NCBI RefSeq assembly: GCF_040358255.1
Contig: NZ_CP132938.1
Location: forward strand, 1,054,001 to 1,118,000
Direction: 5' to 3'
Length of the DNA stretch: 64,000 nt
Source: Tunturibacter gelidoferens
GTDB taxonomy: Bacteria > Acidobacteriota > Terriglobia > Terriglobales > Acidobacteriaceae
This document shows positions 60,251 through 61,230 of the stretch, one piece after another. Numbering within the stretch: position 1 is the first letter of the stretch; the number at the start of each line of letters is the position of its first letter. The position numbers were made by a program, and so were the translations under genes. A model generated the notes under the pieces. That model searched no databases. It worked only from the letters and a program-made list of their open reading frames with translations, and was not told where the DNA came from.

Positions 60251-60913
60251 ATGGGCCTGATCGACGTCATATCAAATCATGGGTACACAGTGACGGCGAT
60301 GGTGATGTTTCTGGCAGCGATGGGACTGCCACTGCCGATGTCGATCACGTTGCTGGCGGCGGGCGCAGCTTCCCAGCATGGTTTGAGGCTGTCGACTGTC
60401 CTGTTGGTAGCGTGGGGTGCAGGGGTAGCGGGCGATACTTTGTTTTACTTCGGCGGGCGCTATACGGGTTGGTGGTTGTTGTCCGGGATGTGCCGGATGT
60501 CGATGAACCCTGAGCAGTGCATCTTCAGTTCGGCCGGATATTTCTATCGGCGCGGACAGAAGACGCTATTGTTCGCGAAGTTTATTCCGGGGCTTGGGGC
60601 GATGGCGGCTCCGTTGGCTGGTTCGTTGAACATGCGGATTGGGCGGTTTCTCCGTCTGGATGCACTTGGAGCCCTGGCTTATTGTTCGGTGTGGCTGGGT
60701 ATCGGGTATGCGTTCAGCGGATCTCTGCGGGAGATTACAGAGTCGCTTGGAAGAGCGAGCCATGCTGCACTTTTTCTGTTATTGCTACTTGGATTCAGTT
60801 ATGCGCTGGCGTTGGTTGTTTTTACGATGCGTGCGCAGAGATACAAGGGGATCGACCGGATTACTGCGGACAATCTTTATGGCGCCTGCAGGAACAGACA
60901 CCGGAAAAGCTGA
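60251..60913 (+). CDS. DedA family membrane protein
   Basis: 220 residues with several TM segments. DedA features: FLAAMGLPLPMSITLLAAGA, WGAGVAGDTLFYFGGRYTGW and FAKFIPGLGAMAAPLAGSLNM with the conserved FIPGxR-like block. DedA proteins flip lipids and keep membrane potential. The last residues read YKGIDRITADNLYG and then a short out-of-family end. The stop (TGA, 60911-60913) overlaps the rhodanese ATG at 60913. The junction looks like a frameshifted fusion, see findings. Confidence 0.9.
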   Translation: MGLIDVISNHGYTVTAMVMFLAAMGLPLPMSITLLAAGAASQHGLRLSTVLLVAWGAGVAGDTLFYFGGRYTGWWLLSGMCRMSMNPEQCIFSSAGYFYRRGQKTLLFAKFIPGLGAMAAPLAGSLNMRIGRFLRLDALGALAYCSVWLGIGYAFSGSLREITESLGRASHAALFLLLLLGFSYALALVVFTMRAQRYKGIDRITADNLYGACRNRHRKS

Positions 60914-61230
60914 TGATCATTGCTGATGTGCGCAGTCATGGGTACTACGATCCGGGGATGCAGCGGATTAAAAACTCGATTCGAGTGGAACCGCACCGGT
61001 TGAAGGAGGAGCTGATTGCGTTGCGCGAGTTTATGGTGCCGGAGTGCGAGGTCTACTTGTATTGCAGCTGCCTTCGCGATACTACCAGCGTCAGGGTGGC
61101 GCATATGTTGATGCAGGAAAACTGCCACACGAAGGTGATTACGGGCGGGATGAAGGCCTGGATTAAAGCAGGCGGTGAAGTGGAGCTGGTTCCTGAAACA
61201 GACCTGCAGCATATGCCAAGATTCGACTAG
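60913..61230 (+). CDS. Rhodanese-like domain protein (probably once fused to DedA)
   Basis: 105 residues with the rhodanese fold: IIADVRSHGYYDPGMQRIKN, the active-site cysteine in LYCSCLRDTTSVRVAH and VITGGMKAWIKAGG. The first ATG leaves out the initial part of the domain; in the same frame upstream, RLQEQTPEKL lies inside the end of the DedA gene. TGATG overlap would allow coupled translation. It may work as a separate sulfurtransferase or be one half of a broken fusion. Confidence 0.8.
   Translation: MIIADVRSHGYYDPGMQRIKNSIRVEPHRLKEELIALREFMVPECEVYLYCSCLRDTTSVRVAHMLMQENCHTKVITGGMKAWIKAGGEVELVPETDLQHMPRFD

Follow-up and report, generated by a model that had tools for sequence, protein, structure and literature searches.

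The split gene and its fused relatives

The window, i.e., the whole stretch of 64,000 nucleotides of Tunturibacter gelidoferens DNA analysed here, carries a DedA membrane protein frame and a rhodanese frame side by side, which raises the question whether these are two genes or one gene that has been broken. The sequence-only reading had proposed a single fusion split by a frameshift and left four causes next to each other: a broken fusion, a sequencing error, a programmed frameshift and translational coupling. The DedA (VTT) half was delimited at 60251 to 60913 on the forward strand, from its open reading frame and from an alignment with 14 fused orthologues. It encodes 220 amino acids, of which the membrane part is in frame to about residue 211. 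The frame ends with DRITADNLYG, a nine-residue out-of-frame tail, ACRNRHRKS, and a TGA stop; the tail had been described as unrelated, and it is indeed absent from all 14 aligned relatives. Residues 28-153 matched the Pfam VTT domain (PF09335) with 36.2 bits, the gathering cut-off being 33.9.

The rhodanese half lies at 60883 to 61230 of the same strand, stop included, and was recognised from its open reading frame, by profile and by homologue searches. Its frame is set one base back from the DedA frame (-1) and is already open before the joint; it reads RLQEQTPEKLMIIADVRSHG... and has its stop at 61230. The half matched the Pfam rhodanese family (PF00581) with 25.8 bits against a cut-off of 22.2 and has kept the motif Y-C-S-C, whose second cysteine (TGC, 61069 to 61071) is, by motif alignment, the putative rhodanese nucleophile. 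As had been pointed out before, the DedA stop (60911 to 60913) and a possible rhodanese ATG (60913 to 60915) overlap as TGATG (60911 to 60915, forward strand).

Each half was searched against 61 genomes, the window's own (G000) included. The rhodanese half was matched at E <= 1e-15 in 23 of 62 genus genomes. These 23 are the window's own genome, one that carries the same species label and 21 that belong to other species. At this threshold no match was found in the other 39 genomes, some of which are incomplete, and the gene therefore appears to be dispensable in the genus. Close orthologues were present in 14 other genus genomes, and alignment to these fused homologues, which had been suggested as a check, gave 14 single open frames of 309-329 amino acids running through the joint; the orthologue of 309 amino acids (G009) misses about 17 DedA residues, in frame. 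Seven further genus homologues aligned over their full length in one frame, so all 21 homologues from other species are fused. A single open frame across both domains is thus found in the relatives and not in the window. The difference is one base: at 60877 to 60883 on the forward strand the window lacks a base that the 14 aligned orthologues and the same-species strain have, and the alignment puts the gap at about 60880, in a sequence that is not a homopolymer. Two separate genes with the same junction were seen in none of the 21 homologues, and the same-species strain is in frame here, so the proposal of one fusion split by a frameshift stands.

The only other genome labelled as the same species is that of strain M8UP30 (G065), deposited as Edaphobacter lichenicola (NZ_JACCCV010000001.1), now Tunturiibacter lichenicola. 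Its copy of the gene (C1 around 459105, L187) is in frame at the joint and has another lesion, a clean 336-bp deletion which takes away the start of DedA with roughly its first 89 codons. About 5 bp are common to both ends of the deletion, and the two flanking stretches align at 96.4 and 98.7%. The same gene thus has different lesions in both genomes at hand of the species, while the frame is broken in none of the 21 homologues from other species. The independent lesion in M8UP30 suggests a real loss of constraint.

A second, intact DedA-rhodanese fusion was observed in the window's genome (L002, G000:C2:3984758-3988288), which could cover for the broken gene. It is a 363-aa open reading frame with the motif Y-C-T-C, and its DedA part is 33% identical to that of the window.

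Cause of the split

The locus is best explained as one DedA-rhodanese gene, quite probably inactivated in this strain by a recent loss of one base at the linker. Judged from the two genomes of the species, the lesion is most likely real and recent, and the gene most likely under decay in this species. Ribosomes would then read the DedA part plus a short wrong tail and terminate, the rhodanese half would not be made, or be made poorly as a truncated protein, and the gene would gradually fall into disuse in the window's species. When intact, the protein would carry, at the C-terminus of its DedA membrane domain, a rhodanese with persulfide transfer on the second cysteine of YCSC.

The rhodanese half itself shows no decay. 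A crude polarisation by four outgroups assigned synonymous changes in 17 codons and nonsynonymous changes in 6 to the G000 branch, with 4 more nonsynonymous ones ambiguous; the branch of the fused relative G028 is similar, with 14 and 3, respectively. The pairwise omega between the two is 0.069. Simple arithmetic from site counts gives about 60 nonsynonymous changes expected on the G000 branch, had the half been unconstrained throughout. The low number observed means that the lesion is very recent, or that the half is still functional, or that the record is wrong.

A wrong record, i.e., a sequencing or assembly error by which a base of a gene still whole in the organism was dropped from the database entry alone, would suit the undecayed rhodanese half and the in-frame joint of the same-species strain, and a single isolated indel is the typical look of residual error. 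We nevertheless consider it rather unlikely, since the site is not a homopolymer, the same gene carries an independent lesion in M8UP30, and indels are rare in the assembly. The last point comes from a syntenic sample of 384 kb of G000 compared with 400 kb of G028, with a third-position filter against antisense shadow ORFs. Across about 51,000 codons in 146 conserved genes there were three frameshift calls from G000 to G028: this gene, which was the one clean case, A_457, which was ragged, and A_148, which the reverse search traced to a break in G028. From G028 to G000 there was one call in 139 genes. With so few calls, indels appear to be uncommon in the window assembly. In-frame stops were also listed in the same sample, for 7 genes in one direction and 5 in the reverse, most of them no more than 10 residues from an alignment end; those farther from the ends were in A_411, B_328, B_125, and B_532. 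A second gene with a frameshift between the genomes was noticed at G000:C2:934210-935637 versus G028:C1:294186-295666, with the break apparently in G028.

The halves could also have been uncoupled, with DedA made alone and a separate rhodanese started from the ATG at 60913 by termination-reinitiation. A weak GGA stretch ahead of the TGATG overlap, and the overlap itself, would suit such a start, the Pfam rhodanese match persists from this ATG (23.6 bits against the cut-off of 22.2), and the rhodanese halves of the two strains of the species differ by 7 synonymous codons and 1 nonsynonymous codon. However, the ATG corresponds to residue 222 of the fused orthologue. In an AlphaFold2 model of the fused G028 protein (22-row alignment, mean pLDDT 79.9, pTM 0.60) the predicted rhodanese begins with a strand at 203-205 and a helix at 206-214, and residue 222 is the start of the next strand; a product initiated there would be without this first strand and helix, which disfavours translational coupling. 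Nor does the overlap need selection for coupling, as it can arise from coding sequence alone: the fused orthologue of G035 has an ATG at the same codon and an out-of-frame TGA overlapping with it, and as in the window the ATG starts two bases past the T of the TGA. When all 14 fused orthologues were read out of frame, 10 met a stop within 11 codons, and several had a start codon nearby. Together with the lack of the two-gene layout in all 21 homologues from other species, this makes uncoupling improbable. Still less probable, to a degree that we would hardly expect it, is programmed -1 frameshifting, by which the full-length fusion and DedA alone would both be made. The rhodanese frame is at -1 and open upstream of the joint, as such a mechanism would have it, but the arrangement is not conserved, the relatives being plainly fused, and no slippery heptamer of the form X-XXY-YYZ was found in the DedA frame. 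From the four causes offered at the outset, the broken fusion is thus the best supported and a sequencing error is less likely, whilst programmed frameshifting and translational coupling are disfavoured.

A probable selenoprotein form in related bacteria

Taken by itself, the loss of one base from the fused gene would be a common case of gene decay seen at an early stage, two strains having two lesions. A lead of greater value is the form of the fusion protein with selenocysteine (Sec) that related bacteria appear to have. We compared 79 orthologous loci from named species genomes, taken from the best 80 of 189 matching stretches, and the counts of UGA and Cys loci and genomes given below refer to this set. 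At the second cysteine position of Y-C-x-C, equivalent to 61069 to 61071 of the window, the codon is TGA in 38 of the 79 loci (L144, L147-L155, L157-L159, L161-L180, and L182-L186) and TGC or TGT in 40; the 79th locus is the truncated M8UP30 copy, which has Cys and fell outside the codon filter. The frame stays open for 52-53 codons past the UGA in all 38 UGA loci. Sixteen bases 3' of the UGA there is a hairpin, GCGCC-5 nt-GGCGC, with all five pairs present in 38/38 UGA versus 4/40 Cys loci. The third positions of codons +6, +7, +9, and +10, taken over the codons of the commonest residue, gave 0 bits in the UGA group versus 0.77-1.68 in the Cys group, where the commonest residue at +7 differs between the groups (Ala and Val, respectively).

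Covariation in the hairpin amounted to one compensatory pair in one of the 38 UGA orthologues, a value reached by 17 of 500 shuffles. The second loop base is G in all 38 UGA loci but also in 39 of the 40 Cys loci, and is therefore not diagnostic. The folding energy of the 45-base stretch that starts with the UGA speaks against a SECIS reading, with a mean z of 0.03 in UGA versus -0.51 in Cys loci (one-sided p 0.998). Since the folding energy does not separate the groups, the SECIS argument rests on the pairing and the frozen synonymous sites, not on stability.

The scores of tRNA-Sec among the matches listed were bimodal, either at least 64.3 or at most 58.1 bits, and a line of 60 bits was applied. 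The gathering score is less strict, at 47, and is passed by 44 of 52 genomes, G028 included; the lower-scoring matches are presumably tRNA-Ser. Among the genomes from the best 80 of 189 stretches, tRNA-Sec of the high class was found in 30 of the 37 with UGA and in 3 of the 15 with Cys, and SelB over its cut-off in 35 of the 37 and in the same three of the 15. One or both were present in 36/37 UGA and 3/15 Cys genomes (Fisher p 2.7e-8, relatedness ignored). Of 14 control genomes, 5 passed the cut-off for tRNA-Sec and 2 that for SelB. Neither tRNA-Sec at the 60-bit line nor SelB at its cut-off was found in G000, G065, and G028; in G000 the best tRNA-Sec score was 45.0, below the gathering score, and there was no SelB match over 242.25 bits. 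The gene in the window, with its TGC and no Sec machinery found in its genome, is thus the Cys form and not a selenoprotein. We also observed two adjacent DedA-rhodanese genes in Granulicella sp. L46 (L134, active-site codons at 1202 and 2323); this genome has tRNA-Sec and SelB although both copies are Cys.

In a wider search across the phylum, 55 of 297 genomes had a homologue at E <= 1e-30. The 70 homologue rows divided into 29 (from 27 genomes) with one in-frame TGA, one with TAG, and 40 with neither. An in-frame TAG, perhaps the mark of another broken copy, was noted in a further DedA-rhodanese homologue of G030 (G030:C5:1917551-1918450). Beyond the five closest TGA rows there were 24 more, of which 20 were fetched as a second subfamily (L191-L210). 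All 20 loci have (Y/F)-C-(T/A)-UGA, and all five stem pairs were present in 14 of the 19 loci counted and not in the other five. In a tree of 78 orthologues, where the gene of G028 was placed and the broken gene of the window left out, the window's relatives formed a single all-Cys clade of 35 rows (support 100/100). The tree needs three changes between Sec and Cys, of which the starred branches force two, and its outgroup is very long.

The in-frame UGA, the SECIS-like hairpin and the Sec machinery together make these DedA-rhodanese fusions look like a selenoprotein family, and the 38 UGA loci between L144 and L186 together with L191-L210 are probably members of it. On the grounds of sequence comparison we find it fairly probable, as a whole, that the fusions are widespread and unlisted membrane selenoproteins of Acidobacteriota, with Sec as the nucleophile and a DedA domain unlike the known flippases, that the window's clade (Granulicella, Terriglobus, Tunturiibacter) has the Cys form without an equivalent of E39 of YghB, and that the gene is decaying in two strains of the window's species. 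An in-frame UGA in the active site makes standard gene callers end proteins early, and annotations of the UGA-form proteins probably show DedA followed by a curtailed rhodanese. Searches of the open-licence PMC literature yielded no paper about a DedA selenoprotein, judged by title and the start of the abstract. The word DedA does not occur in the texts of PMC13188914, PMC12013277, and PMC1088965, supplements aside, and the parts of PMC10127716 and PMC12893004 that were consulted do not mention selenium for the DedA-rhodanese fusion. If these are true selenoproteins, selenium or sulfur transfer chemistry would be physically tied to the DedA membrane domain, and the Sec form would bear on why DedA proteins carry fused rhodaneses.

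Comparison with known systems

The DedA half was compared with YghB of E. coli K-12, aligned with the 78 orthologues and the window. In YghB, E39 and D51 are what we take to be the acidic pair of a COG0586-type flippase. At E39, D51, R130, and R136 the window has A, S, K, and G, respectively, and these key residues, as aligned, do not support naming the DedA half an undecaprenyl-phosphate flippase. R130 and R136 are named in the part of PMC10127716 consulted. The 38 Sec orthologues (from the best 80 of 189 stretches) have E39 in 38/38, K at 130 in 38/38 and N at 136 in 37/38, while E39 was found in 5 of 41 Cys rows, all five outside the window's clade, and is missing in the other 36, window included. 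The membrane glutamate equivalent to E39 is accordingly missing from the window and the 35 rows of its all-Cys clade.

Neither a plasmid search nor a PDB sequence search (E <= 0.01) gave a match. Foldseek with the predicted G028 protein returned mostly rhodanese and sulfurtransferase names among the best 50 of 380 matches (best E 3.4e-4), and no DedA-named entry among these 50.

From the NCBIfam models, NF041203 (rhodanese_LYCAU) was the best match of the window's rhodanese half and of three Sec relatives scanned. PMC13188914 lists it, in the part consulted, as a rhodanese-related (seleno)protein with the motif CxU, rhodanese form 3, and the Sec relatives have C-T-U. However, no score reaches its cut-off of 115 (the window half has 47.6, G028 52.0 and the three Sec relatives 76.8-85.3), the model of 126 positions is too short for the DedA domain, and the window has Cys. 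The same part of PMC13188914 lists TsoB, a rhodanese/DsbD fusion-like selenoprotein (NF045694), which by its name resembles the Sec relatives in joining a selenoprotein rhodanese to another domain of membrane type. It differs from them in having, also by its name, another partner domain and, as listed there, the Sec motif UxxxxU, and one of the three scanned Sec relatives gave a weak match to it, with 20.1 bits against a cut-off of 805.

The closest counterparts are the known DedA-rhodanese fusions (PF09335 + PF00581), which the sequence-only reading had mentioned for other bacteria and which are known in print. PMC10127716 reports, in the part consulted, fusions of COG0586 DedA proteins to PF00581 and calls the connection between rhodanese and UndP unclear, and PMC12893004, likewise in part, names P. 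aeruginosa PA1209 as such a fusion. The domain order is the same as in these fusions, PA1209 being likened by its description in that part of the source. The genus homologues share the fused state in 21 of 21 cases, whereas the gene in the window differs from the known fusions by its broken frame and by the lack of the four YghB residues.
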